Shown here: positions 13,917 to 47,979 of the stretch, piece by piece
Layout: each line of letters starts with the position of its first letter
Position numbering within the stretch: the stretch's first letter is position 1
Assembly (NCBI RefSeq): GCF_028736155.1
Contig: NZ_CP117879.1
Coordinates: 2,108,001 to 2,172,000 of the forward strand
Source: Flavobacterium sp. KACC 22763
GTDB lineage: Bacteria; Bacteroidota; Bacteroidia; Flavobacteriales; Flavobacteriaceae
Length of the DNA: 64,000 nucleotides
Direction: 5' to 3'
Position numbers and translations under genes: made by a program
Notes under the pieces: model-generated
What the model was told of the DNA's origin: nothing
The model's database searches: none
Seen by the model: the letters and a program-made list of their open reading frames with translations, nothing else

Positions 13917-13924
13917 TAAAAATA
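13917..13924 (-). promoter_or_regulatory. Candidate -7 element (TATTTTTA) before the BNR gene
   Basis: On the minus strand TATTTTTA matches TAnnTTTG at all but the last base. It lies 21 bp downstream of the 14-bp element at 13946-13959. A TTG is present 15 bp upstream of it as a possible short-spaced -33 box. The predicted leader is about 75 nt. Confidence 0.5.
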
Positions 13925-13945
13925 ACACCAAAAAATTAACAATGT

Positions 13946-13959
13946 ATCCTGTACTGTCC
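13946..13959 (-). promoter_or_regulatory. Putative activator-binding site (GGAYAGWRCAGGAY), copy at the BNR gene
   Basis: Minus-strand GGACAGTACAGGAT. It differs from the copy upstream of susC (GGATAGAGCAGGAC, 46701-46714) at four positions, all falling in the degenerate consensus GGAYAGWRCAGGAY. The 21-bp spacing to the -7 box is identical in both. It contains two ACAG steps in direct repeat. Confidence 0.6.
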
Positions 13960-14094
13960 CGAATTATTAAAAATGTAGATTATTTAACGCTAATTGCAAA
14001 ATTTCCTGACGAAAACGTTATATCCGAAATCACATTTATTTTTTTATTGTAGCAAAGTAATATTTCTAAGAGTTCATTTTTTGAGAAAAAAAAA

Positions 14095-14925
14095 TTATTT
14101 CTTCCTAGGTAAAGTCTTTTTTTCATCTGCAGGAGGCAAAAAATTCTCATTTGTCACTACATTTTTACCTGTTTGCTGTTCCAGTTCAACTCGTGCATTT
14201 TTTGCCACTGCTCCACCCTTTTTGCTTGCCACTGCATTTTCGATTAATCCTTTTGCTTCATCATTTTCGGCTATTTGTCTTGTTGAAAGTTCAGCCAGTG
14301 CAGTAAAAATAAGTTCAGCCTCGCTCATGTGGTCTCTAAGATTTTGCGACTTTAAGCCTTTTGCTTCTTTATGTTCTTTCACTGAAAGACCAGTCCATTC
14401 CTGATGAATAATATTAGTTAGAATTGCAAATTCATTTTTCTCTTCAATACCCGCTTCTTTCCAATAATCAGTTAGTTTATTTCGGGTTTCCTGTCCCATC
14501 ATGCGTTGCTGAATCCACTTTTCGCTTCTTCCATGTTGTTTCCAGTTTTCTCTTGCCCGGTCAATGCTTTGCACTGGATCTTGAATTTCCTGAATACGTT
14601 CATAACCAACTTTTGCTAGCCATTGTTTAAAAGGTTCAGCTTTAGGAGATGGAATGGATTGTACTATTCTAAAAATATTCTCAACGTTGCCTGCCAATGT
14701 TTTACGCTTTTTCCCATTAGTCAGCATTATTACCTGGGGACAATTTGTCCCTATGTAACTTCCAAGTTCAACATCTCTCTTTCTGATTTTTTTTAAATAA
14801 TCTGTAGGGTTTTTAGAATCTGTTAATGCCTCAACAATATCCACTATAGAAAAATACCAAATTTCATTATCGGTATCGTAATGACTTCGTACTTTTTTAT
14901 CTTCAAAAACTTTAATGGCATCCAT
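14095..14925 (-). CDS. DinD-like / Bro-N domain DNA-damage-inducible type protein
   Basis: 276 aa, cytoplasmic, no signal peptide. The N-terminal 110 residues (KVRSHYDTDNEIWYFSIVDIV, then DYLKKIRKRDVEL, then KRKTLAGNVENIFRIVQSI) are a Bro-N-type putative DNA-binding domain found in phage antirepressors. The C-terminal half (EFAILTNIIHQEWTGLS, KEAKGLKSQNLRDHMSEAELIF) resembles E. coli DinD (FAIFQNHGYQGLYGG, RKGLKKNQKILDHMGSTEL). DinD is an SOS-induced protein reported to antagonise RecA filaments; whether this homologue does so is unknown. It is functionally out of place in a pectin locus, 44 bp downstream of a GH78 gene and just before the second promoter-like site. The tail is Lys/Pro-rich. 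Confidence 0.78.
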   Translation of the reverse strand: MDAIKVFEDKKVRSHYDTDNEIWYFSIVDIVEALTDSKNPTDYLKKIRKRDVELGSYIGTNCPQVIMLTNGKKRKTLAGNVENIFRIVQSIPSPKAEPFKQWLAKVGYERIQEIQDPVQSIDRARENWKQHGRSEKWIQQRMMGQETRNKLTDYWKEAGIEEKNEFAILTNIIHQEWTGLSVKEHKEAKGLKSQNLRDHMSEAELIFTALAELSTRQIAENDEAKGLIENAVASKKGGAVAKNARVELEQQTGKNVVTNENFLPPADEKKTLPRKK

Positions 14926-14969
14926 AAATCACTTTTTACAATACTTCACAATAGTACGAAAAAACTTCT

Positions 14970-17717
14970 TTATTTCACACTCAAAACATAGGAACCCGAT
15001 GGTAATGTTACAATAGTATTATTATCCTTTTTAATAGAAGTAGAAAACTGAGTCAACTTTTGCTTATTCACTGTTATTGCTGAAACATTCGTTGTTGGTA
15101 AATACACTAAAGCTGAAGCATTTGCAGGAATAGTAATATTCCAAACCAAACCTTTTTTATCTTTTTTCCAGTCACTTTTAATTGTTCCGTAAATCGATTC
15201 GTATGAAGCATTTACATAAGTTAATCCTGCATTGAAGTCAGGTTTCATGATAATTTGTTTGAAGCCCGGAGTTTCAGGATTGCTTTTGATTCCTGCCATA
15301 TTTTCGTAATACCAAATCAGTAAATCACCTAAAAGCATGACGTGGTTTTGCGAATTCATTGCTGGATCGGCAGTGTTTCCGTTCCAAAGTTCCCAAATGG
15401 TTGTGGCGCCATTTTCGACCATATAACCCCAGCTTGGATAGGTTTTGTTTGAGGCCAGTTTGAAAGCCAAATCGCCACGACCAAAATTGGTTAATGTTCG
15501 CATTAAAAACTGTGTTCCAATAACCCCAGTGCTGACATGACCGTTTTTAGTCACTTCAACTTCGTGTACCAGATTTTCGAAAACTTTTTGCTGCAATTCT
15601 TCTGGAACCATTCCGAAAGTCAAAGGCAGTAAATTGGCTGTTACGGTATTATTGGCGTAATTATTTTTTGATACATTGAAATATTTAGCATTAAATGCCT
15701 TTTTGATTCTTGAAGCTAATTCGTCATAATGTTTAATATCATTTTCAGCATTAGCAATCACAGCAAACTTTTTCATGATGTTTAAAAGCTGATAATAAAA
15801 CGCACTCGAAATCAATTCGCCATCAGTTAAACGAGAAGGATCTTTGGAACGAATTAATTCTAAAGATTCTGGCGGAACGCACCAATCGCCGTATTTGTCT
15901 TTGGTCATAATATCATCAACCAAATAGTTTTCTTCCATGTAATCCATCCATTTTTTCATAGACGGATATTGTTTTTCAACAACTTTCTTATCGCCAAATT
16001 GTTGATACAGCATATCAGCAACTGTAATATACGTTCCCGGCCAAGTTACGTTGTCGCCATAATAACGCCAGAAAGCTGGTGCAACATCAGGAAGTCCGCC
16101 ATCAATAGTTTGTGAGTTTTTAATATCATCCAACCATTTTGCATACAAAGTCTGATTATCAAATAAGAAACTTTCTCCGTAAGCTCCCGTTGTTCTGTCT
16201 CCCAACCAAGGCTGACGTTCATTTCTCTGCGGACAATCGATTGGCATTCCTTTATAATTCCCGCTGATTCCCCACCAAGCGTTCTTAAAAATCTGATTCA
16301 TAATCGGATTAGAAGAATCAAAAGTTCCTGTTGTGGCAATGTCATCATAAACGACTTTTCCAACGAAATTTTCTAAAGTAGGTTTTGTTTTGAAACCTGA
16401 AATTTCCACAAATCGAAATCCGTGAAAAATAAAACGAGGTTCCCAAACTTCTTCTCCTTCACCTTTTAAAGTATAAATATCAGTTGTTTTGGCATCACGT
16501 AAATTGGCAATGTATAACGAACCATCAGACTGTAAAGATTCAGCAAATTTCATTGTGATTTTGTCACCCGCATTTCCTTTCACTTTCAATTGTAACCAAC
16601 CCACCATATTTTGCCCCATATCTAAGATATAAGTTCCTTTTGGTGTCTGTTTGATCGAAATAGGTTTTACTTCACGTTTTACCTTCATATTCGCCGACAT
16701 CTGTCCTTCGTAGAATCCGCCCGGTTCCTGAACATATTCTACAGAAAGCCATTTTTTATCATTAAAATTAATGGTATTCCAGCCTTTCATTTCTTTACGG
16801 GCATCATATTCCTCTCCGTCGTATTCGTTGTTGGATAAAATCGGTCCGTCAGTTGTGATTTTCCAAGTATCGTCGGTTCTAATCACATCTTTGCTTCCGT
16901 CCGTATATTCTACAAACAACTGCAAAGCCATTTTCGGATACCCAAAAGTCTTGATTTTATAAGGTTTGTAATCTTGACGCATCGTAAAAAAACGTCCGTT
17001 TCCTAAAATCGTTCCCAACGCATTTTTACCTTCCTGCAATTGCGAAGTCACATCAAAAACATTGTATTTTACATTCTTCGTATAATCTGTAGGAACTGGT
17101 GCTAAAACCTGATCTCCAATTTTATTTCCGTTAATGTATAGCTCGTACAAGCCCATTCCCATGATATAAACTTTGGCACTTTTGACTTTCTTTTTCAAGT
17201 CAATTTCTTTTCTTAAATATCTCGCTGATAATCTAGAATACTGCGAAATACTATCTCCTGGAGAAGTTTTTTCATAACCAATCCAACGCGTCGATTTCCA
17301 ATCTGCATAAGTCAAAATTCCGATACTGAAATGTGCTGTTTCTTTTGATTGAACTTCTCCTTTATTGGTAAAAACCGTTACTTTCCAATAAACATCTTGT
17401 CGGTCTTTTGTTTTTTTTCCATTATAAATTACATTTACAGATTCCTCGCTTTGTACCTTTCCACTGTCCCATAAATCTGCGTTTCCTGCATTTAATTTTT
17501 CTAAAGATGAAGAAGCTAAAATTTGATAATGAGTTTGTTTTACATCATTTATTTCTGCTTTTATTTTCCAGCTCAATCTTGGCTGTAAAACATCAATTCC
17601 TTCAGGATTGGCCAACATTTCGCATTTTAAATCACTCACAATGATTTTGGTTTGGGCTTTCGCCGAAATTGTGAAAAGTGAAATGATTAAGGTAAGATGT
17701 AAAAAAAACTTTTTCAT
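14970..17717 (-). CDS. GH78 alpha-L-rhamnosidase
   Basis: 915 aa, signal peptide ending near TISAKAQ. It has the full GH78 layout: an N-terminal beta-domain (VSDLKCEMLANPEGIDVLQPRLSWK), further beta-sandwiches (YIMGMGLYELYINGNKIGDQVLAPVPTDY split across about 200-225), an (alpha/alpha)6 barrel and a C-terminal beta-domain. The barrel carries DCPQRNERQPWLGD with the probable general acid E500, and TTIWELWNG with the probable base E776. GH78 enzymes are inverting exo-alpha-L-rhamnosidases; here the likely substrates are rhamnose branches of RG-I or RG-II. It is separated by 256 bp of repeats from the upstream gene and is followed at 44 bp by the DinD-like gene. Confidence 0.93.
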   Translation of the reverse strand: MKKFFLHLTLIISLFTISAKAQTKIIVSDLKCEMLANPEGIDVLQPRLSWKIKAEINDVKQTHYQILASSSLEKLNAGNADLWDSGKVQSEESVNVIYNGKKTKDRQDVYWKVTVFTNKGEVQSKETAHFSIGILTYADWKSTRWIGYEKTSPGDSISQYSRLSARYLRKEIDLKKKVKSAKVYIMGMGLYELYINGNKIGDQVLAPVPTDYTKNVKYNVFDVTSQLQEGKNALGTILGNGRFFTMRQDYKPYKIKTFGYPKMALQLFVEYTDGSKDVIRTDDTWKITTDGPILSNNEYDGEEYDARKEMKGWNTINFNDKKWLSVEYVQEPGGFYEGQMSANMKVKREVKPISIKQTPKGTYILDMGQNMVGWLQLKVKGNAGDKITMKFAESLQSDGSLYIANLRDAKTTDIYTLKGEGEEVWEPRFIFHGFRFVEISGFKTKPTLENFVGKVVYDDIATTGTFDSSNPIMNQIFKNAWWGISGNYKGMPIDCPQRNERQPWLGDRTTGAYGESFLFDNQTLYAKWLDDIKNSQTIDGGLPDVAPAFWRYYGDNVTWPGTYITVADMLYQQFGDKKVVEKQYPSMKKWMDYMEENYLVDDIMTKDKYGDWCVPPESLELIRSKDPSRLTDGELISSAFYYQLLNIMKKFAVIANAENDIKHYDELASRIKKAFNAKYFNVSKNNYANNTVTANLLPLTFGMVPEELQQKVFENLVHEVEVTKNGHVSTGVIGTQFLMRTLTNFGRGDLAFKLASNKTYPSWGYMVENGATTIWELWNGNTADPAMNSQNHVMLLGDLLIWYYENMAGIKSNPETPGFKQIIMKPDFNAGLTYVNASYESIYGTIKSDWKKDKKGLVWNITIPANASALVYLPTTNVSAITVNKQKLTQFSTSIKKDNNTIVTLPSGSYVLSVK

Positions 17718-17754
17718 TATTTTATTTTTAAGCTTTTGGCTTTATTTTTTTGTT

Positions 17755-17952
17755 TCTCGCAGATTTTGCAGATTGAACAGATTATTTTACTCTATTTTTT
17801 AAATCTCCTAAATCTGCAAAATCTGCGGGAGTAAATTATCCTCATTTTTGTCATTTCGACGAAGGAGAAATCTTCGCAAGAAACTCCACAATCTAAATCG
17901 ATAATCTTTGTCGAGCTACTAACGAAGATTTCTCCTTCGTCGAAATGACAAA
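17755..17952. repeat. Tandem of family A and family C inverted repeats
   Basis: A CTCGCAGATTTTGCAG ... CTGCAAAATCTGCGGGAG hairpin (17755-17830) is followed by a GTCATTTCGACGAAGGAG ... CTCCTTCGTCGAAATGAC hairpin (17845-17952). The second arms are perfect for more than 20 bp. Together they occupy most of the gap between the GH142-like and GH78 genes. Confidence 0.92.
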
Positions 17953-17973
17953 CTAGACAGTTAAATACTTAAA

Positions 17974-19542
17974 TTATTCAGAAACCAACTTCTCCAATCT
18001 CTCAGAAACTGCAATTTCTTTTCCATTCTTAAAGATTCTAAAACCTTTACCTTTTTTATATTTTTCTCCCGTTTTATCCCAAAGAATCGTAATGATATTT
18101 CCGTGATATAAAACATTATCCAAACAAAACCAATCCCATTTTTCTTGTGGAATCAACGGATTTACTTCAATCTTTTCATCTGCTCTCGGGCGTAAACCAA
18201 TCAAACCTGTAATCACCAAATCATTGAAAGTGGAGTGATTGTAGTAACGGCTTCTTTCTCTGTCGCCCATTAACCAATAACCCGTTGTTTCATCCAAATA
18301 CTCGCCAAGATAAGGTTTTCCCCTATAATATTGCGACTGAACATACAATTCCATCTGTTTGAAATAATCAGGTTTGGCTACAAAATTCTGATTGTAATTA
18401 TTCAAAACATTAGCTAAAGCCGTTAAGGTCTGTGAACTTGCAAAAGGCCAAATTGCACCATCCCATTCGCAGGTTCCTGTTCCATGTGTTCTAAAACGCG
18501 GACTTCTTCTTTCTGCTGTTGTTAAACCGAATGGAGCCGAAAATCCTTTTTCATCCTTAATCTGTTCCCAAGCTTTTTCAAAACCTTTATTTTGCTCTGG
18601 AAGATTAAAATACCACGGAATAAACCCGATTGCTTCTCGAACTTGTGCTAAAGTATCTTTTTCTGTTAAAGTTTCAAAAAAATCACTTTTCTTATTCCAT
18701 AATTTTGTTTCTACTAATTTTTGCAGAACATCAGCTTTCGCTTTGAATTTGGTTTCTGTTTCTTTATCACCTTTCATTTCAGCCATTTTAGAAATCGCTA
18801 CAGCGTTTCCGTACATATAACTGTTAATCGTTGGTCTTGCATTTTGCACTTTTCTTCCTCCGCTTAAAGATTCTTCCATTCCATCTTTTACATCATGCTG
18901 CCAAAACAAACCATCTTTGCGTTGACGATCTTTTTCCCAAACGGCATAATCGGTAACCATGTCTGGGTACAAATCCAATAAGAATTCTTCATCTTTATTT
19001 ACCAAATAACGATTATACAAAGCATCCGCTGTCCAACTGCTGAATTTATACAATTTATTCATCGGTTTTCCATCATTTCCTCTGTACCAAAGTTTCACAT
19101 CCTGCTCGATATATTTCGGATCATGAACCCATCTGAATTCGTTAATATGATGCCCCAACGCACAACTAATCATATTGTATTTATCAGCATACGAACGATC
19201 AACCAAGAACTCGGTAATTGCAAATCCTTGTGGAGTATTTTTAATATGCTTTCGAACGCTCCACCATCTGAAATAATAAATCTCCTCAAAATTCTGCTGT
19301 GGACATTCAAACAACGGAATATTCTTTTCCATCCAAGCCCAAGCGCTGTCATTCGGAATCGCAAATTTTAAGTTTTCATCTTCCATCGTATTGAAATAAT
19401 CAACATAATGTTTAAAGTTTTTTTCTTTTAAAATAACCGATTTTCCTTTTTTAGAATGTTCCGCAGTCGATTTGCAACTGCTGTTTATACAAGCGATTAC
19501 TATTGAAAGTGTTATTATTTTATGTTTGAAATTTGTCAACAT
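17974..19542 (-). CDS. (alpha/alpha)6-barrel glycosidase, GH142-like (MGH1/GH63-type fold)
   Basis: 522 aa. The signal peptide contains a lipobox-like INSSC (Cys22), so a lipoprotein is likely. The rest is an (alpha/alpha)6 barrel: WWSVRKHIKNTPQGF, KFSSWTADALYNRYLV, DGLFWQHDVKDGMEESLSGG, NARPTINSYMYGNAVA, CEWDGAIWPFASSQTLTAL and RSRYYNHSTFNDLVITGLIGL. Candidate catalytic acids lie in DVKDGMEES and CEWDGAIW. The sequence class is that of mannosylglycerate-hydrolase-like barrels. My recollection is that the C-terminal GH142 beta-L-arabinofuranosidase half of the RG-II enzyme BT1020 has this form; here it would be a stand-alone protein. The GH142 call is inference; the barrel call is firmer. Confidence 0.65.
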   Translation of the reverse strand: MLTNFKHKIITLSIVIACINSSCKSTAEHSKKGKSVILKEKNFKHYVDYFNTMEDENLKFAIPNDSAWAWMEKNIPLFECPQQNFEEIYYFRWWSVRKHIKNTPQGFAITEFLVDRSYADKYNMISCALGHHINEFRWVHDPKYIEQDVKLWYRGNDGKPMNKLYKFSSWTADALYNRYLVNKDEEFLLDLYPDMVTDYAVWEKDRQRKDGLFWQHDVKDGMEESLSGGRKVQNARPTINSYMYGNAVAISKMAEMKGDKETETKFKAKADVLQKLVETKLWNKKSDFFETLTEKDTLAQVREAIGFIPWYFNLPEQNKGFEKAWEQIKDEKGFSAPFGLTTAERRSPRFRTHGTGTCEWDGAIWPFASSQTLTALANVLNNYNQNFVAKPDYFKQMELYVQSQYYRGKPYLGEYLDETTGYWLMGDRERSRYYNHSTFNDLVITGLIGLRPRADEKIEVNPLIPQEKWDWFCLDNVLYHGNIITILWDKTGEKYKKGKGFRIFKNGKEIAVSERLEKLVSE

Positions 19543-19564
19543 TTAAAATTCAATCTTTTTAAGT

Positions 19565-19633
19565 TAAACCATGTAAGTAATACAAGTTCAATTAAATTTT
19601 CCTTTATATTTTCTTATATCACTTATATGGTTT
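19565..19633. repeat. AACCATATAAG palindromic repeat (family D)
   Basis: Arms AAACCATGTAAGTAATA and TATCACTTATATGGTTT with an AT-rich centre fill the 100-bp gap between the GH95 and GH142-like genes. It is related to the elements at 1485, 2224, 8445 and 36546. Confidence 0.85.
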
Positions 19634-19642
19634 TAAATATTT

Positions 19643-22099
19643 TTAATTCCCAGTAAAAGTATACGTCTGCCCTGCTTTCATATTCACATCGTAAATATTA
19701 TAATTTGGCAATTGTACTTTAGGCAATTTTGCTTCTTTAGAAATAATCGGTTTTTTCACTTCTACATCATAAAACAACGGATTCGGATTTTTTCCTTTTG
19801 CTTTTTTTAAAGAAGAGCCTTTCAGCGTATTTTGTACTTTTAATCGACAGTTTCCTCCAATTTTCGAGTAAATTTTCAACTCCGAAACTTTATTATTTTT
19901 CCAGGTCATATCTATTAGAAAACCACCTCTGGCAACCAAACCTTTTATGCTTCCATCTTTCCAAACCGTTGGCAAAGCAGGCAATAACTGAATCGCATCT
20001 TCTTGACTCTGCATTAGCATTTCGGCAAAACCAGCTGTACATCCAAAATTTCCATCAATTTGAAATGGCTGATGCGCATCTAACATATTCGGATACGTTC
20101 CACCACCTTTTCTTTGATCTGCTGTTACCAAATGTAATTGATCCTGAATCAATTTATAAGCGTGATTTCCATCTAATAATCTCGCCCATAAATTCACTTT
20201 CCATCCCATTGACCAACCTGTAGATTCGTCTGTTCTATAAATTAAAGATTGTTTTGCCGCTTCAAATAATTCAGGTGTTTTAATTGGCGAAATCTGATTA
20301 CTTGGATACAAGCCATATAAATGCGAAACGTGTCTATGATTATCTTTTGGGTTATCCCAATCATCCTGCCATTCCTGCAGCTGATTGTGTTTTCCGACTT
20401 TCATTGGTGGCATTTTTGCCAAAGCATCACTTATTTTTTTCACATAAGCTGCATCAGGAGAAACCAAAGCCGAAGCTTCCATAACATGCGTAAATAAATC
20501 AAAAACCAACTGATTATCCATTGTTGTTCCCGATGCAATTGTTGCTTTTCCTGTTCCGCCTGCGTGTGTGTTTTCAGGAGAACTTGAAGGAACAACAACT
20601 AAATATTTTGTGTTTGGATCTATCACCATGAAATCCAAAAAGAAATCAGCAGCACCTTTCATAATTGGATAAATTTCTGCTAAATATTTTTTATCACCAG
20701 TATATAAATATCTTTCCCATAAATCCTGACAAACCCAAGCGCCACCCGTCGGCCACATTCCCGAAGCTGCTGAATCTACTGGAGCGGTTACACGCCAGAT
20801 ATCGGTATTGTGATGCAGAACCCAACCGCTAGCATTGTACATTGTTTTGGCAGTTTCTCCACCAGTTACAGCCAACTCTTTTGCCATTTGTACAAAAGGC
20901 TCGTGCATTTCCTGCAAATTGGTTACTTGTGCAGGCCAGTAATTCATTTCGGCATTGATGTTTGTGGTGTATTTACTGTCCCAAGGCGGAGTGACCATAT
21001 CGTTCCAAATTCCTTGTAAATTGGCTGGCTGTCCGCCTGGCTGTGAACTTGAAATTAAAAGATAACGTCCAAACTGGAAATATAAAGCAGCTAATTGCGG
21101 ATCAAATTGTTTCGAGAAATCTCTGATTCTTTCGTTTGTTGGTTTCTTTGTCAATTCGTTTGAACCTAAATCTAAAGTAACTCTGTTGAAGAATTTTTGG
21201 TAATAGTCAACATGCGCTTTCTTTATGGTTTCAAAATCTTTTACTTCGGCTTTAGTTAAATAGTCTTTGCTTTTTGCAATTTCATCTCCCGAAATATCCT
21301 GATAGTTTTTGAAGTTGGTTGCAATCGAAATGTATAAAGTTACTTCATCGGCTTTGTTGATGCTTAAAACGCCGTTGCTTGCATCAATTTCACCGCCTTT
21401 GTTTTTAGCTGTTAATCGGCCTTGAAATTTTACTTTTCCTTTTACACCTTCAAAGTTAGTTCCAACTCCAGAAAGTATAATCTGGTTTCCTTCTGTCGAA
21501 GCAACCGTTTTATCAATCGGACTGTTCATGAAAACATTACAAGTAATCTGCCCTGGTTGACTTGCCGAAAGTTTCACTACAATAACTTGATCTGAAAATG
21601 CAGTCAGAATTTCTCTTGTAAATTCAACACCGTTTACTTTGTATTTTACCTTCGCCGTCGCATTACTGATGTCTAAATCACGATAATAATCCGTATATTT
21701 TTGATGTCCTGCGAATGAAATATACACGCTTCCAAAAGTCTGATACGGCATTCCGTCATTGGTTTGCGACATAATATCCTGTGTTGCCAGATCCTGCGCT
21801 TCATCAAATTTTCCATCAAAAATTAACTGACGAACAATTGGAAGTGCTTTTATTGATTTAGTATGTGCATTGCTGTTTGGAGAACCTGCCCAAATCGTTT
21901 CTTCGTTCAACTGCAAACGCTCTACAGCTGGGTCGCCAAAAACCATTGCACCTAAACGTCCGTTACCTAAAGGCAAGGCTTCGTTCCAGATTGAGGCTGG
22001 TTTATCGTACCAAAGTTTTAGGTCGCTGTTGCTTTGCGCTGTTGTAGCGAAGGAAACAATTCCGAAACAGAGGACTGTAATTTTATTTCTTAAATTCAT
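19643..22099 (-). CDS. GH95 alpha-L-fucosidase / alpha-L-galactosidase
   Basis: 818 aa, signal peptide ending near FATTAQ. It starts with the GH95 N-terminal beta-domain ([27 protein letters not shown] split over about 28-55, then [13 protein letters not shown]) and contains the (alpha/alpha)6 barrel with [31 protein letters not shown] and [12 protein letters not shown]682 in IDGNFG corresponds to the conserved catalytic-base Asp of the family, and the Glu of SPENTH is also conserved. Family members cleave alpha-1,2-L-fucose or, in RG-II and xyloglucan settings, alpha-L-galactose. RG-II side chain A carries terminal L-galactose, which fits the context; specificity cannot be read here. Confidence 0.92.
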
Positions 22100-22190
22100 A
22101 TTTTATACTTTTTAGGCAAAGCCCGAATTGTTTTTTTAACCGCAAATTGCACAAATTATCACAAATTCATTTGTTTTGAAATTTTACGAA

Positions 22191-22220
22191 TCCTGCAAGG
22201 TTTACAAAACCTTGTAGGTA
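22191..22220. repeat. CCTGCAAGGTTT palindrome (family F)
   Basis: CCTGCAAGGTTTacAAAACCTTGTAGG forms a tight hairpin. Near-identical at 56126-56152; related TAACAG/CTGTTAG versions at 8626 and 36730. Confidence 0.85.
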
Positions 22221-22253
22221 TTATTTCTAATCAAAACCCAAATGTTCTTGAGT

Positions 22254-22379
22254 TACGAGAGCGCGTGAGGGATAGAAGCTGGCTACCAAAGTAGCGCGGA
22301 TAGCCCGACCCGATTTGCGAAAGGGGGCGAAATGAGCGGTTACAAAATTGCCCCCTTTTTCAAATTGGGTCACGCCCAA
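22254..22379. repeat. GTGAGGGATAGAAG...GCCCGACCC...CACGCCC element (family G) with internal GC hairpin
   Basis: Shares GTGAGGGAT, AGCCCGACCC and CACGCCCAAAT blocks with 8670-8761. The copy contains an extra AAGGGGGC / GCCCCCTTTTT stem (about 22321-22360) that could act as an intrinsic terminator, reading best on the plus strand. It lies just downstream of the esterase gene stop. Confidence 0.7.
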
Positions 22380-22382
22380 ATA

Positions 22383-23801: not shown

Positions 23802-23822
23802 TTTAATATTGTTGTATGTTGG

Positions 23823-23951: not shown

Positions 23952-23952
23952 A

Positions 23953-26916: not shown

Positions 26917-26927
26917 ATTTCAACTTT

Positions 26928-33357: not shown

Positions 33358-33366
33358 ACCCTTCTT

Positions 33367-36519: not shown

Positions 36520-36545
36520 CTTATTATTTTTTTAGACTTTAAAAT

Positions 36546-36763: not shown

Positions 36764-36774
36764 CCTACTATTTG

Positions 36775-38481: not shown

Positions 38482-38528
38482 TGAATTGTGTGGTGTAGTT
38501 AATAGTTTTTGGCGTAAAGTTTAAGAGA

Positions 38529-39215
38529 TTATTCTTTCGAAGTAGAATCTTTTGGTTTATTTTTTTCTCTTTCTTCAATACGTTTGTGCCAGTCAGAGCT
38601 TTCTTTGTTTAAATCGTAACCTTGTTTTGATAAATAGTTATTGATTCTTCCTTTGTATTTACCAAACCATCCGTGTTTTTCTTTAGATGAACCAGCATCC
38701 ATTGCGTGTTCTCTGGCTTCAACTAAAGCTTTGTAGATATAATCTTTCTGTTCTGCTGTTAAATTTGGAAGCATGTCGTTGTAACCTGCAACTGTGATTG
38801 GAAGCACACCATAAGTCATTCCGTCTTTCACTTCAGTGATTTTATCTTCAGACAATTCTTTGCTTAATTTTTTGATATAAGATTTATGCAGTTTTGCAAT
38901 TGACTTGTCTGCATTTGATTTTAACTTATCAATTTTCTCGTTTTGCTTTTCTTTTGCTAAAGAGGCGTCTTCTTTTACTTTTTTAATTTCAGCATCTCTT
39001 CCATCTTGGATTTCAGTTAAATCTCTGAATTGCTGCGCGATGATATTTGAAACTGCTTTTTCTTTTGCTTCGTTTTTTAGATCTAATTTGGTAACAATTT
39101 TTGCAGCTCTTTCGTTGGTAACTTTTACATATTCAGGATCTAAATGCTGTTGCGCAATATTACTCCCAAACACTAAAAACATCATTAAAACACCTATATT
39201 TTTTATTAATTTCAT
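38529..39215 (-). CDS. DUF3826 exported protein
   Basis: 228 aa, signal peptide MKLIKNIGVLMMFLVFGSN. The mature part is strongly helical and charged (YVKVTNERAAKIVTKLDL, ERAA to KEKAVSNIIAQQFRDL, KLKSNADKSIAKLH), with ITVAGYNDMLPNLTAEQKDYI near 142-162 and GWFGKYKGRINNYLSKQGYDL near 187-207. This is the DUF3826 pattern, a family seen repeatedly in Bacteroidota PULs next to pectate lyases. No biochemical function is known to me. The Spy-like heptads suggest a periplasmic adaptor, chaperone or binding role, which is speculative. It is sandwiched between the two near-paralogous PL1 genes and probably co-transcribed with the downstream one. Confidence 0.72.
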   Translation of the reverse strand: MKLIKNIGVLMMFLVFGSNIAQQHLDPEYVKVTNERAAKIVTKLDLKNEAKEKAVSNIIAQQFRDLTEIQDGRDAEIKKVKEDASLAKEKQNEKIDKLKSNADKSIAKLHKSYIKKLSKELSEDKITEVKDGMTYGVLPITVAGYNDMLPNLTAEQKDYIYKALVEAREHAMDAGSSKEKHGWFGKYKGRINNYLSKQGYDLNKESSDWHKRIEEREKNKPKDSTSKE

Positions 39216-39244
39216 CTTAATAAATTTTATGAATTACAATATTT

Positions 39245-39315
39245 AATCTGCCTAATCTGCTAAATCTGCGGGCTAATTTTTTTATCTCGCAGATTTAGCA
39301 GATTTGCAGATTTTT
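39245..39315. repeat. CTCGCAGAT repeat (family A)
   Basis: AATCTGCCTAATCTGCTAAAT... and ...CTCGCAGATTTAGCAGATTTG form a hairpin between the 570-aa PL1 gene and DUF3826. Confidence 0.88.
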
Positions 39316-39343
39316 ATTCTGCTGTTTCTAATCTCGCCGATTC

Positions 39344-41056
39344 TTATTTTAAATCTAATAAAGGTCTAACTAATGTTTCTTTGTTATTAGCCAAATCTTT
39401 CCAGTCTACTTTTATCGCAGGATTTACACCGTTGATGTAATCTTCAATATTGGTGTATCCATCTCCGTTTAAATCTCCTTGTGCATCAGATGGATCGTTC
39501 GGGTTTAAACCGTATTTTTTCTCCCATGCATCTGGTAATCCGTCTTTATCTGTATCCACATAAGGTTTTCCTTTGTATTCTGGATATCCTCCCACTTGAG
39601 AAACATCTGTAATAATTCCTTTTTTATAAGAATCCATCGGTAAACGTCTGTGTTCAAACTGATAGAATTCTTTTTTCTCTAATCCTTTTGCGTATTCAGG
39701 AACTCCTGTTTTTACTGTTCTTACGATTCTTTCGTCAACTTTATCTCTAATTGGTAATGTTGCTCCAACGTTTTTAAGAACAAATTCGTAAGATTCTTCA
39801 GCAGTCATGAATTTGTTAAACCACGGCATTGGAAAAGGTTTATCTGCTTTCATTTTAGCAAAGTATTCTTTTGCTTCATCATAAGTCATTAATTCACCTT
39901 TTTTATTCTCTAACTGAATTCCGCCATCCCAGTTGTCTTTAGAAACTTTTTCATTATTATTTACCACGTTTCCGTTTACGTAAGCTCTACCAAAAACCAT
40001 ATAAGGTAATTTACTTCTTCCCGATTCTGGTTTTAAGATTCTATAGCTGATTGGCTGAGTCAAATCAGTTACTGGACCTGGTTTGTAGAAGTTGTTGATG
40101 ATATTGTAATTCGCAGTATAATCTCCTCCATCAGTTGATCTGTTATACCAGTTGAAAACCACATTATTCACAAAATTGAAAATTCCGTTCCAGCCGATAG
40201 AAGGGTTTCTTCCTGCATTATTAGCCCACATATTTCTCATGAAAGAGCAATTTTCTCCACCTAAAGTACTTCCAAAAGCATGATTATAAGTATCTAAAGC
40301 TTCTCCAAATAAACTGTTTTGGATAGTAATATTTACAGTTCCCACTTTTACATCTGGATAACCTGGGCCTGGGCTATAAATATGTCTGTAAATTGACATA
40401 TTTTCATCTAATCCCCAAGTTGCAGAAACGTGGTCAATCATTATATTTCCAACAGGATTTCCTCCAATTGAATCATCACGACGTCCTACAAAAGTTTCTC
40501 CACGACGAAAACGCATATGTCTGATAATTACATCATGAGTATCAATCCAAGTTGATTCACCAGCAACACAAATACCATCCCCCGGAGCAGTCTGTCCTGC
40601 GATTGTGATATAAGGTGCTCTAATAATTAAAGGGCTTTTAAGTCTGATAATCCCAGAAACATTAAAAACTATTATTCTCGCTCCACCTTGTTCACAAGCT
40701 TCGCGTAAAGTTCCCGGTCCTCGATCTTCTAAACTTGTTACAGTATAAACTTTTCCACCACGACCACCAAATGTGTACATTCCTCCACCTTCAGCACCCG
40801 GAAAAGCTGGAATACTTGCCTGAGGTAAATCTGTTGGTCTTGATGCCCACGGAATATACGGTTTTCCATGTTTTGCTTCTTCTTCGATAACTACTAAAGC
40901 TTTTGTCCAAGCTTCATCAGAAAGTCTTTGAGCTTCTTCTTTAATTGCTTTTTCCTGAGCCTGAACTTCTGGACTTATCTTCGGATATTGAGCAAAACAT
41001 TTTGCACTTCCTAAAAAAAGCAGAGATGATGCGATAAATAATGCGGAATTTTTCAT
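39344..41056 (-). CDS. PL1 family pectate lyase, paralogue
   Basis: 570 aa, signal peptide ending near AKCFAQ. Nearly collinear with the 568-aa PL1: AFPGAEGGGMYTFGGRGG, SLEDRGPGTLREAC, IAGQTAPGDGICVAGE, VIIRHMRFRRGETF, IMIDHVSATWGLDEN, and the same C-terminal DTDKDGLPDAWEKKYGLNP and NGDGYTNIEDY Ca-type motif. Both keep PL1 signature residues. The two probably differ in methylation or side-chain tolerance. The gene follows susD after a 104-bp gap that contains a perfect 9-bp stem-loop, so it may be expressed by read-through from the susCD promoter. Confidence 0.9.
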   Translation of the reverse strand: MKNSALFIASSLLFLGSAKCFAQYPKISPEVQAQEKAIKEEAQRLSDEAWTKALVVIEEEAKHGKPYIPWASRPTDLPQASIPAFPGAEGGGMYTFGGRGGKVYTVTSLEDRGPGTLREACEQGGARIIVFNVSGIIRLKSPLIIRAPYITIAGQTAPGDGICVAGESTWIDTHDVIIRHMRFRRGETFVGRRDDSIGGNPVGNIMIDHVSATWGLDENMSIYRHIYSPGPGYPDVKVGTVNITIQNSLFGEALDTYNHAFGSTLGGENCSFMRNMWANNAGRNPSIGWNGIFNFVNNVVFNWYNRSTDGGDYTANYNIINNFYKPGPVTDLTQPISYRILKPESGRSKLPYMVFGRAYVNGNVVNNNEKVSKDNWDGGIQLENKKGELMTYDEAKEYFAKMKADKPFPMPWFNKFMTAEESYEFVLKNVGATLPIRDKVDERIVRTVKTGVPEYAKGLEKKEFYQFEHRRLPMDSYKKGIITDVSQVGGYPEYKGKPYVDTDKDGLPDAWEKKYGLNPNDPSDAQGDLNGDGYTNIEDYINGVNPAIKVDWKDLANNKETLVRPLLDLK

Positions 41057-41160: not shown

Positions 41161-43134
41161 TTATTCTTGGAAGCTATATGTTCCTGCTCCACCGAAATTG
41201 TCATTCCATCCGATAGTTTGCAATAACCAAGGATTTGAAGTTAAAGCTGTCGTATTAAGACCACTTATGTAATAATTTGGATTGAATTTTATTTTAACGG
41301 CTGCACCACTTACATTATCCATTGGAGTTACTAAAGCAGTACGTACAAAATTAGCATTGTAATAAGTAGCCAAAGTATTCAATTGTGTTTGGAAAGTTGC
41401 TGCATCTGGATCAACAACAATGCTTGCACGAGAAGCTGCTAAAGGGTCTGTTGCTGTTGCATTTGTTTTATATTGCAAATAGTTTCCAGTTCTTTGCGTT
41501 CCGTTAATTGGCGTTAAACCTAACTTGCTTACTGTCCCACCTGTCATACCTGGAAGCACTTCATTATCATATAACATCCATCTTTGAACATCCCAAAAAC
41601 GTTTTCCTTCGTAAGCTAATTCTACTCTTCTTTCATACAAAACAGCTTCAATAGCTTGATATTTATCAGTCAATGTACCAATTCCATAGTTGTTTGCTGC
41701 AGGAATACCAACACGCGCTCTAATTTTTCCTAGATAAGTGGCCGTACTTCCAGTTTGTCCTAATGCTGCATAACATTCTGCAATATTCAATAATAATTCT
41801 GCAAAACGATATTCCATAATATCAGTTGGCGAATAAGCGTAATTTACTGCATTACTTGCTGTTTGATTAGTCATTTTTCTAACAACTGCTGGACTTGTAG
41901 TAGTGGTATTAAGATCATTGAAATAAGCTTTATTAGCGTTATCTACCCAACGGTAAGACCAGAAAACTGCATTAGCACTTTCTTTATACCCCCACTTAAC
42001 TCCAGAGAATGCAAATGTTCTATAAAATCTTGGATCACGATTAATGAAGAAAGTAAAATCATTGTATCCATTAGCCGTAGTTGGTCTTCTTCCATCTCCC
42101 ATTGGAAACAGATCAATCATTTCTTTAGGAGCAGAAACTCCTCCAGTTCCACCTTGGCTTGGTAATCGAGTTGCTTTTTCCCAGTTATTATTTACGTTAA
42201 AATTAATATCAGTATTAGAATTTGATAAAAGCTGAACTGTAATTGCTTCTTTACATTTAATATTGTCAATTAAAAACATATTTTCCCAGTCTTTTGCCGA
42301 ACTTCCATACAATCCATAACCATTTTGAGTCAATTCTGCTTCCGCAGCCAATCCAGCATCTAAAGCTGCTTGCCAACGTTCATTAGAACCATCCCAGCTT
42401 TTGTTAAACAAAGGACTTGCATATGTTAATAAAACTCTTGATTTTTGAGCCAATGCTGCTCCTTTTGTAAAGCGTCCATAGTTTGCAGCATCCCAATCTC
42501 CTGGCAATAAGCTTGCCGCCATATCTAAATCGCTAACAATTTGCGCTACAACTTCTGAAACTTTAGCTCTCGGTAACTTAATACTTTCATCATCTACAGA
42601 TGGATTTTGAACTTTTGTTACAATCGGAACACCTCCATAAGTACGCATTAAATCAAAATACTGAATAGCGCGCATATAATACATTTGTCCTTTTGCACGA
42701 TCACGAAATGTTTTATCCAAACTTGCTCCTTTTACATCGATGTCTTCAAGAAGATTATTACATTCTCTAATTCTTGTATAGGCATTATTAATAAGACCTG
42801 TACCAATCTTTGCTCCAAAATAATCTTTTGCAACATCAGGAGTAAGAAGTAATTTACTTGGGTTAGTATAATCCTGAACTCCACCTTGTTCTTCAGTTAG
42901 CTTAGTATTTACATCTGTATATACCCCAATTACACTAGATGTTGGCGACTTATAAGCTGCAAAAAAATCGTAGTATTGATTGTCTACATACGCCTGCACA
43001 CGTGCTTGATTTTGGTAGAATGAATCATCATACTGACCAATAGGCTTCACTTCGTCCAAGAAATTGTCACTACAGGAAACCCCTAGAACAAGTACAAGTG
43101 CTAAAGTGATATATATATTAAATTTTGTTTTCAT
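41161..43134 (-). CDS. susD: SusD/RagB-type glycan-binding outer membrane lipoprotein
   Basis: 657 aa. The signal peptide ends in a lipobox LGVSC (Cys20) followed by SDNFLDEVKPIGQYDD. TPR-like helices typical of SusD (YTRIRECNNLLEDIDV, KGQMYYMRAIQYFDLMRTYGGVPIV, AQIVSDLDMAASLLPG) and the C-terminal RagB segment (EYRFAELLLNIAECYAALG, YERRVELAYEGKRFWDVQRWML). It forms the lid of the SusC importer and binds oligosaccharides at the cell surface. The gene lies 19 bp after susC. Specificity, probably a pectic oligosaccharide, is inferred from neighbours. Confidence 0.95.
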   Translation of the reverse strand: MKTKFNIYITLALVLVLGVSCSDNFLDEVKPIGQYDDSFYQNQARVQAYVDNQYYDFFAAYKSPTSSVIGVYTDVNTKLTEEQGGVQDYTNPSKLLLTPDVAKDYFGAKIGTGLINNAYTRIRECNNLLEDIDVKGASLDKTFRDRAKGQMYYMRAIQYFDLMRTYGGVPIVTKVQNPSVDDESIKLPRAKVSEVVAQIVSDLDMAASLLPGDWDAANYGRFTKGAALAQKSRVLLTYASPLFNKSWDGSNERWQAALDAGLAAEAELTQNGYGLYGSSAKDWENMFLIDNIKCKEAITVQLLSNSNTDINFNVNNNWEKATRLPSQGGTGGVSAPKEMIDLFPMGDGRRPTTANGYNDFTFFINRDPRFYRTFAFSGVKWGYKESANAVFWSYRWVDNANKAYFNDLNTTTTSPAVVRKMTNQTASNAVNYAYSPTDIMEYRFAELLLNIAECYAALGQTGSTATYLGKIRARVGIPAANNYGIGTLTDKYQAIEAVLYERRVELAYEGKRFWDVQRWMLYDNEVLPGMTGGTVSKLGLTPINGTQRTGNYLQYKTNATATDPLAASRASIVVDPDAATFQTQLNTLATYYNANFVRTALVTPMDNVSGAAVKIKFNPNYYISGLNTTALTSNPWLLQTIGWNDNFGGAGTYSFQE

Positions 43135-43153
43135 AATTAAAATCGAATTTAGA

Positions 43154-46100
43154 TTAGAATGAGATGTTGAAATTAAACGACCAAGATCTAAGCGTAGGAT
43201 ATCCTACTGAAGAGTTATCGTACATATTTCTATAATGATCCGGATAAGGGTTATAGAAATCCCAAAGATTATTACCTGTAATACCTATTGATATATTATT
43301 TACTTTAGTATTAGCAAAAACTTGTTTAGGTATTTCATACGCTACAGTCAAGTTTCTAACAAAACAACGGAAAGTACTAATCTGCCAAAAATCAGAAGGG
43401 CTTAATACACCCGTTTGTGCTAAATTAGGGTATTTACCATTTACATTATCTGCCGCGTACATATCATTCCAAAAAGTTTCGCGAGACCACATATTACTTG
43501 CACTAGAAGTTGGCTGACTCATCAAGTCTATAAAGTTTGCTCCTCCCCAAGAAGTTGCTATTTGAGTTTTTACAGATAAGTTGCTATACTTGAAGCCTAA
43601 ATTAGTATTAATAGTATATGTTCTACTGCTATTTGCTAACTTAACATAATCATTTCCTGCAAGAATCTGACCGTTTGGTCCACTTAAGGATCCATCAGTA
43701 TTAAGCGTACCAGCAACATCTTGATAAGCTAATGATCCTTTTTGAATTTTAGTTGGATCAACAATAGTTAAATAACTTGGTGTAGTTCCCGCAGCCGCTG
43801 CATTTGCACTTAAGTAGCTCCAGTAATTAGCAATGTCTTCATCTGTACGTAAAATACCGTCTCCTGTAGAAGTTCCTTTCCAAGTTTGGAATCCCCAAAC
43901 TGGATTAAATCCTTCCGAATATCCTTCTCTTCTCGTATTGTTAGATGGAAGCAAATTTCCTTGATCTGGAAATCTTTTAATTTTATTATCTCCATAACTA
44001 AAGTTCATGCCTACACTGTAGCCCACTTTACCAATTTTATCATTCCAGTTCACGTTAAGTTCAGTTCCCCAAGCATTAACTTGTGCATAATTTTGTTCTG
44101 CAAATGCCCCACCAACAGAAATTGGCACACCTGTAGCGCTACCCATATCAGTCAACATGTCTTTGGTAATATCATAATAGAAATCTGCATTAACCTCTAA
44201 TCTGTTTTTTAAGAATCCAAGATCAAAACCAAGATTATGTTTCAATGTAGAATCCCATTTTGCATCTCTATTTGGGTTTACTTTAGGAGTTAAACCCGAT
44301 CCTAATACACCTCCGCCGCCGTTAGAGACAGCAGGTCCAAACTGCCAACCTTTATTAACTGTTAAATCATAATATTGGTACCATTTGAAAGGCTGAAGAT
44401 TATCTTTTCCAGTTTTACCAATCGAATATCTTAATTTAAAGAAATTAACTCCTGGTAAAGCTTTCTCAAACCACTCTTCCTTAGAAGCTACCCAACCCAA
44501 TTGAAGCGATGGGAAAGTACCCCAATAATTTTCAGGCGCAAACTTCGTAGAAGCATCACTACGGATAAGGAATTGCACCAAGTATTTTGATTTAAAATTA
44601 TAGTTTACCGATCCAAAATAAGAAAGAGTTGCATTATTTCCTTTTAAAGCAGTAGAGTTACCAGTATCAACTGTTCCTGCAGTACGCCAATCTCCAAGAT
44701 AATCTTTAGGAGTATTTGTGTATGCTAAACGAGTAGTTTGCCAGTCTGATTCAGATCTTTCAATACCAAACATTCCACTAACATTATGATCTCCAAAAGT
44801 TCTGTTGTAATTTGCAAAGAAGTTTGCCTGAGTACTTTTAGAAAAACTACTGTTATAATAAACTCTTGAATTTCTAACGTTTGTTTCTATAGCATAATCA
44901 ATCATACCTCCTACTTCTGGATTCTTTGTTATCGCACTTGGATAAGCCGCACTTGCTAAATGATTATCCTGTAATTGATAATTTGTAATTCTTGCTAAAT
45001 CATAAGGTAATTGAATCTGCTCTGAATAACTTGAATTTTTAGTTCTTGCAAAAGTTGCTTTGAAAGATAAACCTTTAATTGCAGCAACTTTGTAATTTAA
45101 GGAAGCATTCACATTGAAAGAAGCGTCATCTGTTGTTTGATGCGATCCATTGTTTAGGTTGGCAAAATAGTTCCATCCAGCGATGTTATTATTTGCATTT
45201 GCGCTTCCAAAGTTTTTATTCGTATTAGGAAATGGAGACATATAATATTCTTTTCCATCCACTATTGTTTGCCATGGAATAAATTTTGGCATATGCACTA
45301 AATATCCATAATCAGCTTGTTCACCACCTGCAGCACTACCATAACTTCCATCGCTGATGTTTGCAGATGCTTTAGTAAATGATTTATCTATAAATCCAGT
45401 ATTACCAGAAATAGACGCAGAGAAGTCTAAATTTTTAGCAATTTTTGCATTAATACCAGTTCGGTAATTCCATTTGTCATATTTTTGGTAACCAAGATTT
45501 GCATCTTGTGTCAAATAAGTCGCACCAGCAAAGTATGTAATATCTTCACTACCCCCATTTACATTAAATGAATGTTTTTGCTGAATAGCCGGTTTCCAAG
45601 CCTCTTTAAGCCAGTCATAATCTAAACCTTTCATTTCTTCCAATTCTGCTGCAGAAAATAAACTCGCTGGAAGAATAGTAGGATTTTGTGCTGTTAAGAA
45701 TCGATTGCTAAAAACTCCAAACTCATAAGCACTCATAGTTTTAGTGTGGCTAACCGCATCATTAACTACAAATTGGCTATTGTAGCTAAATTTAGCTTTC
45801 CCAGCCTTGCCTCGCTTCGTTTTTACAATAATAGCACCTTGAGATGCACGAGAACCATAAATAGCTGCAGACGCATCTTTTAAAACGGTAATACTTTCAA
45901 TTTCAGATGGATCCAATCTATTAAAAGTATCTAAAGTAGCTTTACCAGTCGCTGGATCAACTTGAACCATATCATCTATAACTACTAATGGTATAGTTGA
46001 GTTTCCATCTTTTGAAAAACCAAAAGTTTGGCGGATTTGGATAGTACCAGCATCTCCAGGTCGGCCTGAACTTGGTGTAACTGAAAGTCCTGGAACTAAT

Positions 46101-46540
46101 CCTCTTAATGCATCCGATAAATTCGTTACAGGTAAGTCCATAAGTTCATCTGGTTTGATCGTAGCAATCGCTCCAGTAAGTTCCTTTTTCTTTTGAGTAC
46201 CGTAACCAACGACAACAATATTTTCTAATTGATTAAAATCGTCTTCCATTTTTGCATTAACAATAGAACGATTGTTTAAAGGTATTTCTATTTTTTTCAT
46301 TCCAATGAAAGAAAAAACTAATGTTCCTCCACTTTTAACTTTAATCTCATATTTTCCATTGTAATCTGTTGTCACTGAATTTTTAGTAGATTTCTCAGTT
46401 ACGTTAACTCCAGGCAATAGTCCACCTAAATTGTCTGTAACTGTTCCCGTTACTGTAACTTGATTACTTTGAGCATAACTCAATACACTCATCAGTGTAA
46501 ACAAAAGAAAACTACATCTTTTTATAAGTGCTTGTTTCAT
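43154..46540 (-). CDS. susC: SusC-type TonB-dependent oligosaccharide transporter
   Basis: 1128 aa, signal peptide ending near LSYAQS. An N-terminal carboxypeptidase-regulatory-like domain (GTVTDNLGGLLPGVNVTEK, YEIKVKSGGTLVFSFIGM) is followed by the TonB box (ENIVVVGYGTQKK), the plug domain (NLSDALRGLVPGLSV, LDPSEIESITVLKDASAAIYG, SRASQGAIIVKTK), a 22-strand type barrel and a terminal aromatic (FNFNISF). It imports the oligosaccharide bound by SusD. This is the only SusC/SusD pair in the window. It sits at the head of a unit with a 650-bp upstream region that carries a promoter-like arrangement at 46672-46714, so it is probably the first and most strongly expressed gene of the locus. Confidence 0.96.
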   Translation of the reverse strand: MKQALIKRCSFLLFTLMSVLSYAQSNQVTVTGTVTDNLGGLLPGVNVTEKSTKNSVTTDYNGKYEIKVKSGGTLVFSFIGMKKIEIPLNNRSIVNAKMEDDFNQLENIVVVGYGTQKKKELTGAIATIKPDELMDLPVTNLSDALRGLVPGLSVTPSSGRPGDAGTIQIRQTFGFSKDGNSTIPLVVIDDMVQVDPATGKATLDTFNRLDPSEIESITVLKDASAAIYGSRASQGAIIVKTKRGKAGKAKFSYNSQFVVNDAVSHTKTMSAYEFGVFSNRFLTAQNPTILPASLFSAAELEEMKGLDYDWLKEAWKPAIQQKHSFNVNGGSEDITYFAGATYLTQDANLGYQKYDKWNYRTGINAKIAKNLDFSASISGNTGFIDKSFTKASANISDGSYGSAAGGEQADYGYLVHMPKFIPWQTIVDGKEYYMSPFPNTNKNFGSANANNNIAGWNYFANLNNGSHQTTDDASFNVNASLNYKVAAIKGLSFKATFARTKNSSYSEQIQLPYDLARITNYQLQDNHLASAAYPSAITKNPEVGGMIDYAIETNVRNSRVYYNSSFSKSTQANFFANYNRTFGDHNVSGMFGIERSESDWQTTRLAYTNTPKDYLGDWRTAGTVDTGNSTALKGNNATLSYFGSVNYNFKSKYLVQFLIRSDASTKFAPENYWGTFPSLQLGWVASKEEWFEKALPGVNFFKLRYSIGKTGKDNLQPFKWYQYYDLTVNKGWQFGPAVSNGGGGVLGSGLTPKVNPNRDAKWDSTLKHNLGFDLGFLKNRLEVNADFYYDITKDMLTDMGSATGVPISVGGAFAEQNYAQVNAWGTELNVNWNDKIGKVGYSVGMNFSYGDNKIKRFPDQGNLLPSNNTRREGYSEGFNPVWGFQTWKGTSTGDGILRTDEDIANYWSYLSANAAAAGTTPSYLTIVDPTKIQKGSLAYQDVAGTLNTDGSLSGPNGQILAGNDYVKLANSSRTYTINTNLGFKYSNLSVKTQIATSWGGANFIDLMSQPTSSASNMWSRETFWNDMYAADNVNGKYPNLAQTGVLSPSDFWQISTFRCFVRNLTVAYEIPKQVFANTKVNNISIGITGNNLWDFYNPYPDHYRNMYDNSSVGYPTLRSWSFNFNISF

Positions 46541-46671
46541 AAATGTTTTTTGGTTAGGTTATTAATGTTAGTTAGTCATGTTTTAAACATGTCTTAATTA
46601 TAATAAAACTTTACTTAAAGAAATCTTAATAAAGATTATTAAATGTTTAAAACACATTTATTTTAATATTC

Positions 46672-46679
46672 CAAAAATA
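46672..46679 (-). promoter_or_regulatory. Candidate -7 element (TATTTTTG) of susC
   Basis: Minus-strand TATTTTTG is a full match to the Bacteroidota consensus TAnnTTTG. No good -33 TTTG is present at 17-20 bp, and the 14-bp element ends 21 bp upstream. This suggests an activator-dependent promoter with a leader of about 125 nt. Confidence 0.6.
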
Positions 46680-46700
46680 TGACGATGATACATTAGAACC

Positions 46701-46714
46701 GTCCTGCTCTATCC
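46701..46714 (-). promoter_or_regulatory. Putative activator-binding site (GGAYAGWRCAGGAY), susC copy
   Basis: Minus-strand GGATAGAGCAGGAC, placed 21 bp upstream of the -7 box, the same distance as the copy at 13946-13959. The sequence aCAGGATAGAGCAGGAC also has CAGGA in direct repeat at about one helical turn, as expected for an AraC-type or hybrid two-component regulator dimer. Confidence 0.6.
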
Positions 46715-47975: not shown

Positions 47976-47979
47976 AAGT

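Follow-up and report, generated by a model that had tools for sequence, protein, structure and literature searches.

What switches on a pectin-utilization locus in Flavobacterium, given that the regulation of polysaccharide loci has mostly been described through the local hybrid two-component (HTCS), SusR and extracytoplasmic function (ECF)/anti-sigma sensors of gut Bacteroides? The question is raised by a 64-kb stretch of the one-contig, 5.56-Mb genome of Flavobacterium sp. KACC 22763 (G000:C1:2108001-2172000; hereinafter the window; G, C and L numbers denote genomes, contigs and loci), which carries what appears from its genes to be a locus for rhamnogalacturonan II (RG-II). In it, a 14-bp element stands at one fixed distance from a predicted -7 box both before a susC gene and before a gene encoding a BNR_2 domain. 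Below, we present evidence that this element is an operator shared with rhaT, the gene for an L-rhamnose permease, and that its probable binder is a regulator encoded beside the L-rhamnose operon, which we call REG.

An element 21 bp ahead of the -7 box

On the minus strand of the window, the susC promoter holds the operator-like element GGATAGAGCAGGAC at 46701..46714 (16-bp form GGATAGAGCAGGACGG, 46699-46714), and exactly 21 bp downstream of it the predicted -7 box TATTTTTG at 46672..46679. The BNR promoter, on the same strand, holds GGACAGTACAGGAT at 13946..13959 (16-bp form GGACAGTACAGGATAC, 13944-13959), again exactly 21 bp ahead of a predicted -7-like box, TATTTTTA at 13917..13924; the positions and the spacing first claimed for the two pairs are thereby confirmed. 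A scan of the window with the pattern GGAYAGWRCAGGAY returned both promoter sites, and nothing else, without mismatch, and a single match with one mismatch (32979-32992) that lies in a gene and lacks a box. The composite pattern, element-N21-TNNNTTTR, picks out only these two sites in the 64 kb even at up to three mismatches. In its 16-bp form, GGAYAGWRCAGGAYAG, the element is an imperfect direct repeat of GGAYAG with a 10-bp period: 31 sites picked by hand do not vary at positions 1, 3 and 9-12 (CAGG), and their halves (1-6 and 11-16), read as a direct repeat, agree to 73%, with a palindrome fraction of 0.53, which is weak.

One could suppose that unrelated sequences had been paired by eye through a degenerate, after-the-fact consensus, as the consensus was drawn from these very sites and AT-rich DNA is rich in -7-like boxes. 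Against this stands a weight matrix made from 78 sites beside rhaT or REG (six distinct 16-mers), with the window sites left out, which gave the two positions the highest scores of the 64 kb (22.8 and 19.5, with 15.9 for the next best), while 200 dinucleotide shuffles of the window reached at most 19.4 for the top score and at most 17.0 for the runner-up; since the matrix sites had been found via the consensus of the original prediction at up to one mismatch, the ranking is not wholly blind. Taken with the controlled genome-wide counts and with the persistence of the pattern where spacers have diverged and in other genera, both described below, it leaves chance pairing hardly credible.

Genome-wide, the exact 14-mer occurs four times: at the two window sites, once upstream of rhaT, and once in a coding frame (C1:4152252), this last being rejected as a site because it lies inside a 547-residue frame without a box. 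The composite is exact at three places, namely the susC, BNR and rhaT promoters, and at up to three mismatches it has 24 matches as against seven for a reversed-pattern control. Allowing two mismatches adds GGATACTACAGGTT-N21-TATCTTTA ahead of a GH78-like gene (L017:4324-6510), a weaker copy of the element that lies 6.5 kb past the end of the window and heads a third unit of the RG-II locus. It also adds two matches that were set aside and not counted (C1:5462603 and C1:1851836), hairpin-like inverted repeats of the form AGCAGGATA...TATCCTGCT that were judged by eye to be terminators. These hairpins are near-identical and mimic the element; one of them has a LacI gene on one side and a GH67 gene on the other. 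A third mismatch admits 18 further places, including C1:435013-435055 on the minus strand (L289), where a weaker element (two mismatches in the 14-mer) stands N21 from AAACTTTA before a gene for a PelZ-like protein secreted by the type IX secretion system. Because the exact 14-mer stands ahead of a gene resembling this one in G136 and G139, we tentatively count the PelZ-like gene as a further target. The random genome-wide occurrence that, by the original prediction, would have told against it was looked for, and was not what we found.

The arrangement is conserved through the genus. A scan of 150 Flavobacterium genomes returned 103 matches to the exact 14-mer (14 with the reversed control), and, with the spacing left free between 10 and 32 bp, 65 of 76 matches fell at 21 bp (one match with the reversed control); the rows of both counts stem mostly from orthologous promoters and are not independent events, and in the free-spacing scan three sites are represented by multiple rows. 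Orthologs of susC (34-100% identity) keep the element within one mismatch in 22 of 25 cases, all 22 with TANNTTTG at exactly N21. Among the BNR orthologs the element is exact in 18 of 25, three more have two mismatches at the same place, and [TC]ATTTTTA stands at N21 in 20 of the 25. From 30 loci of each kind, five for susC (26-29% identity) and five for BNR (38-40%) were left out of these counts as non-orthologs, and none of the loci left out has a site at up to two mismatches. Thirty-two genomes had rhaT: all 30 of the loci fetched for this count show element-N21-TTATTTTA (26 elements exact, four with one mismatch), while G118 and G025 were examined apart, the former reading GGATACTACAGGAT-N21-TAATATTG. 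Mean pairwise identity of the spacers is 0.66 (susC), 0.79 (BNR) and 0.81 (rhaT), with a minimum of 0.29.

Two promoter hexamers, too, stand at a rigid distance from each other, and the element could accordingly be imagined as the -35-like half of a promoter read by an alternative sigma factor. The partner box, however, is of the sigma-A type TANNTTTG as described in PMC9723704, the target loci are few and have a sugar regulator adjoining, and the element holds a repeat; we hold this explanation to be very improbable. Together, the data support a real, conserved, promoter-linked operator at a rigid 21 bp from a Bacteroidota -7 box.

The rhamnose operon and a candidate regulator

At the rhaT locus of the strain (L015), rhaT is accompanied by rhaEW (encoding a bifunctional rhamnulose-1-P aldolase/dehydrogenase), a rhamnose-isomerase-like gene, whose NCBIfam scores are under the curated cut-offs, and an FGGY kinase gene. 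Divergent to these is the gene for REG (C1:2288675-2289718), at a distance of ~134 kb from one window site and ~167 kb from the other. REG, of 348 residues, has an N-terminal GntR winged helix (PF00392, E 1.8e-12) and a C-terminal Peripla_BP_3 domain (PF13377), both above the gathering score. With its AlphaFold model, which is of moderate confidence (mean pLDDT 79.9, pTM 0.63), the best Foldseek matches are LacI-family regulators; its best NCBIfam match, PdxR, covers the winged helix only, and its nearest named relatives are in Flavobacterium species. REG thus has the AraR architecture, a GntR winged helix joined to a LacI-like sensor. The original prediction had spoken of two co-regulated units, a number that the data do not support: the operator also stands at rhaT beside this GntR/LacI chimera, and the weaker copy noted above heads a third unit of the RG-II locus.

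Across 80 stretches containing REG, rhaT is present in 74 and the composite, at up to two mismatches, in 79; upstream of REG the element is exact at 75 of the 80 loci and within one mismatch at 78 (the misses are L089 and L098). In Gelidibacter, Wocania and Gillisia, which differ both in the DNA and in gene order, it is rhaEW (63-64% identical) that follows the element, with the boxes TATTTTTG, TACATTAG and TATATTTG at 21 bp, and Flavivirga has one site ahead of rhaEW (TACTTTTG) and another upstream of REG (TAGTTTTA). When other genera were searched at the DNA level only, 55 of 349 genomes proved to contain the composite, and the reversed control matched once. In 20 regions picked from these matches (nine downstream proteins annotated), the gene behind the site is rhaEW in seven and of susC type in five; further regions have a GH28-like gene, two sulfatase-GH78 fusions, rhamnogalacturonan lyase 11 (PL11-type), GH88, GH43, two 3-keto-disaccharide hydrolase genes, and sulfatase and DUF5722 genes. 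Both fusions (L386:1469-5038 and L389:5843-9358) lie behind such a site and beside rhaEW and REG, which suggests that ulvan-like glycans belong to the proposed regulon. Within Flavobacterium, 40 regions picked from the matches (three proved intragenic; 20 downstream proteins annotated) include sites preceding susC-type receptors and GH78, GH106, GH28 and GH43 genes. Composite sites at up to two mismatches number 27 in G066 (C29 and C40), 21 in G060 (C20) and 22 in G112 (C1), against 0, 2 and 1, respectively, for the reversed control, which suggests several related operators and REG paralogs serving different loci.

Presence of the motif and of REG was compared in 80 Flavobacteriaceae genomes outside Flavobacterium, comprising 40 of 52 motif-positive genomes and 40 motif-negative ones, the latter picked as mostly large and complete and not at random. 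A REG-grade match (E <= 1.2e-142) was found in 40/40 motif-positive as against 3/40 motif-negative genomes (Fisher 2.3e-19); of the three latter, two (G150 and G229) carry sites with one mismatch next to REG, and G198 carries none.

Some other transcription factor (of the AraC family, an HTCS or another kind), co-inherited with the rhamnose genes, might nevertheless be the binder, and a site abutting the -35 region is typical of AraC activators. Direct repeats, too, are usual for HTCS and for AraC-type RhaR sites (PMC3878776, PMC3870299) and unusual for GntR proteins. Yet it is REG that lies divergent to the conserved site and shows the co-occurrence just given. The nearest AraC gene seen (L017:6938-7756) was rejected as the binder, having no ortholog-grade match in eight element-bearing genomes (G075, G112, G114, G066, G092, G139, G054 and G057). 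Moreover, the repeat has a 10-bp period, and no second copy of the element, as in HTCS motifs, lies 20-22 bp upstream (at least 4 of 14 mismatches at best, in 73 promoters). Pfam scans of 32 window open reading frames (ORFs) revealed no AraC or HTCS protein, a genome-wide HTCS search not having been made. The only DNA-binding-type domain noticed in them is a Bro-N domain (phage antirepressor type) in an ORF at 14095-14925 on the minus strand, between GH78 and BNR; because it is found in only three of the 25 BNR-ortholog loci (L159, L161 and L167, the strain's own among them), it is probably an insertion into the locus and not a regulator. We consider a different binder quite unlikely. The operator of the original prediction, and very probably the co-regulation of its two units, stand, but the activator of AraC/HTCS type that it had assigned to the polysaccharide utilization locus finds no support and is probably the wrong class: none of the 32 window ORFs scanned encodes such a protein, the AraC gene fails in co-occurrence, and the HTCS-style repeat is missing.

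Further evidence comes from loci in which the operator has been replaced. In G074, G031, G005 and G051 the regulator beside rhaT is only ~40% identical, and the operator there reads GGACTGTACAGGAC. In three of these (G005, G051 and G031; L148, L149 and L152) the element has gone from the susC promoter, and two palindromes with the core TGTAAACGTTTACA stand in its place, which we take to be of the kind used by LacI regulators; these promoters record a natural exchange of regulator sites, from the element to a LacI-type operator.

Proposed activation by REG and the points against it

The flavobacterial sigma-A -7 box, TAnnTTTG, extends from -12 to -5 (PMC9723704), which therefore puts the element at -47 to -34. 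A TTG within -34 to -29 is seen in 8/22 susC, 0/21 BNR and 0/30 rhaT promoters and, being so scarce, indicates that there is no conserved -33 box. The promoters thus have what marks class-II activator-dependent ones, a site that abuts the -33 region in fixed phase to the -7 box. One phase maintained over diverged spacers argues for contact with RNA polymerase and hence for activation.

We propose that the element is the operator of REG acting as a rhamnose-responsive regulator of AraR architecture. Its binding site would span roughly -47 to -34, directly next to where a -33 box would lie and in constant phase with the -7 box. With rhamnose or a metabolite as the signal, REG would activate transcription in a class-II-like manner, so that a single regulator would turn on the rha operon together with two units of the RG-II locus, or probably three. 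The observations behind this model are the sites, their spacing and conservation, the adjacency and co-occurrence of REG, the kinds of target genes and the operator replacement; from these we infer direct binding of REG to the element, activation and not repression, the extents of the operons and, by its neighbouring genes, rhamnose as the ligand. We regard such a trans-acting rhamnose regulon as likely, with good confidence.

The chief alternative keeps the operator and the protein and reverses the sign: REG would be a repressor that blocks RNA polymerase until rhamnose releases it. The site is near enough to the promoter for a steric block. Of the architectures whose DNA-binding domain has been solved, AraR is the closest, and the PDB calls the B. 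subtilis protein a repressor, which also tells against our model. A repressor, however, needs no fixed phase, yet the free-spacing matches concentrate at 21 bp over diverged spacers and no TTG is conserved near -33; we rate repression as unlikely.

Several other results weigh against activation by REG at this element. GntR proteins mostly bind palindromes (PMC4494728), and the element, if it is the REG site, is not the palindromic operator of the AraR type. In G025, rhaT and a 69% identical REG are present and the site was not found. The rhaT box TTATTTTA differs from TANNTTTG at two positions, and TATTTTAC at 22 bp would serve equally well. The 20 loci around more distant REG paralogs have a related site at up to one mismatch in five cases and none in 15, and 11 of 30 REG loci have no site at this level in the fetched flanks; among these 11, G219, G280, G193 and G301 each have two REG genes side by side. 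In G198, G243 and G249, rhaEW adjoins REG and yet the fetched flanks hold no site at up to one mismatch. Some related sites precede NYN, PKD, fasciclin and NrtR/AraR-type genes, which have no evident rhamnose link. Lastly, the E limit of 1.2e-142 was set after the gap had been seen (next match, 7.6e-93), and REG follows rhamnose genes generally, so that co-occurrence does not prove binding.

In a wider form, which we somewhat favour, a family of GntR-LacI chimeric activators would control the use of rhamnose-containing glycans across the Flavobacteriaceae (RG-II, rhamnogalacturonan I and, by gene content, ulvan-like sulfated glycans) through one rigid syntax, GNAYAGNRCAGGAY-N21-TANNTTTR, with a remote monosaccharide regulator in place of a local sensor and with orthologous loci rewired to a LacI-type operator. 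We recognized no flavobacterial GntR rhamnose regulator in the literature searched, from which subscription papers and RegPrecise were left out.

The RG-II locus and its relation to known systems

The window is strongly polarized, with 31 of 36 ORFs of at least 120 residues on the minus strand and four of the five others overlapping these; the genes assigned below to the susC and BNR units and to the upstream part of the locus lie on the minus strand. Behind the susC promoter, susC (43154-46540) and susD (41161-43134), both recognized by Pfam, are the first genes of a unit (41161..46540), to which the genes downstream of susD (14970..41056; GH78, GH95, GH28, GH43, apiosidase-like, BT_1020-like and others) are assumed to belong. 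The BNR_2-domain gene (12691..13836, by Pfam) is the first of the second unit, where membership of the genes further downstream (154..12596) is again assumed; they include an alpha-D-galacturonidase gene (8767-11520), above the NCBIfam cut-off, and a beta-glucuronidase/arabinofuranosidase-like gene (4911-8438), below it, and are interrupted by a gap of 907 bp (1418-2324) that holds a plus-strand ORF (1601-2215). For the beta-glucuronidase/arabinofuranosidase model of NCBIfam, NF049877, the C-terminal and N-terminal parts match separate genes of the locus ~60 kb apart (window 4911-8438 and L017:1246-2367). The upstream part of the locus (47193..63954), behind the GH78 promoter with its weaker element outside the window, encodes, among others, an aceric acid hydrolase (49113-51131, above the NCBIfam cut-off) and a GH106 protein (58047-61433). 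The apiosidase-like and BT_1020-like proteins are Pfam matches, and pectinesterase proteins are encoded along with GH78, GH95 and GH106. Enzymes for RG-II-specific sugars are present, and by this gene content it is an RG-II utilization locus. The GH78, susC and BNR sites split it into stretches of ~24 and ~33 kb; because gaps of up to 328 bp within these stretches, and of 652 bp ahead of susC, leave room for more promoters, the operon extents are assumed.

A short motif thus predicts a trans-acting monosaccharide regulon in Flavobacterium, one in which an RG-II locus would be tied to the catabolism of rhamnose. The promoter rule can be scanned for in flavobacterial genomes, it comes with one candidate regulator and with natural operator exchanges as controls, and it suggests a rhamnose-inducible promoter for flavobacterial genetics.

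The AraR protein of B. subtilis senses arabinose and represses through palindromes. REG shares with it the GntR winged helix and the LacI-like sugar-sensing domain (the AraR subfamily is named in PMC4494728) and is set apart by a direct repeat, the fixed distance to the -7 box and the rhamnose genes. MocR-type GntR regulators (GabR, PdxR, TauR) offer the complementary likeness: like some other GntR regulators they have direct repeats as their binding sites, and several of the MocR type are activators, as is proposed for REG (PMC5320631, PMC4494728); their sensor, however, has an aminotransferase fold and that of REG is LacI-like.

Rhamnose regulons of Bacteroidales have been predicted with an AraC-type RhaR and 21-bp repeats (PMC3870299, PMC3878776). 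These, too, concern a rhamnose operon of Bacteroidota and a direct-repeat motif, but with an AraC-family protein, a 21-bp periodicity and one target operon, whereas here we find a GntR/LacI chimera, a 10-bp period and polysaccharide units as well; neither 'GntR' nor 'Flavobacteri' occurs in the main text of PMC3870299. Predicted DeoR-type RhaR motifs come closer in form, being two imperfect direct repeats with a 10-11-bp period before rhamnose genes (PMC3870299), although their protein family and lineages are other than those of REG. Among the genes that pectin induces in F. johnsoniae are SusC/D loci and one for a transcriptional regulator (PMC8056085). Finally, the HTCS at Bacteroides rhamnogalacturonan loci (e.g., BT0981 for BT0977-1030) resemble the present case in serving pectin loci through direct-repeat sites before susC-type units, although for the rhamnogalacturonan-induced BT0977-1030 itself the HTCS motif could not be predicted (PMC3878776). 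They are local membrane hybrid sensors of oligosaccharides with a 21-bp repeat distance, whereas the RG-II locus described here would answer to a regulator encoded far away, whose sensor domain is of a soluble type.

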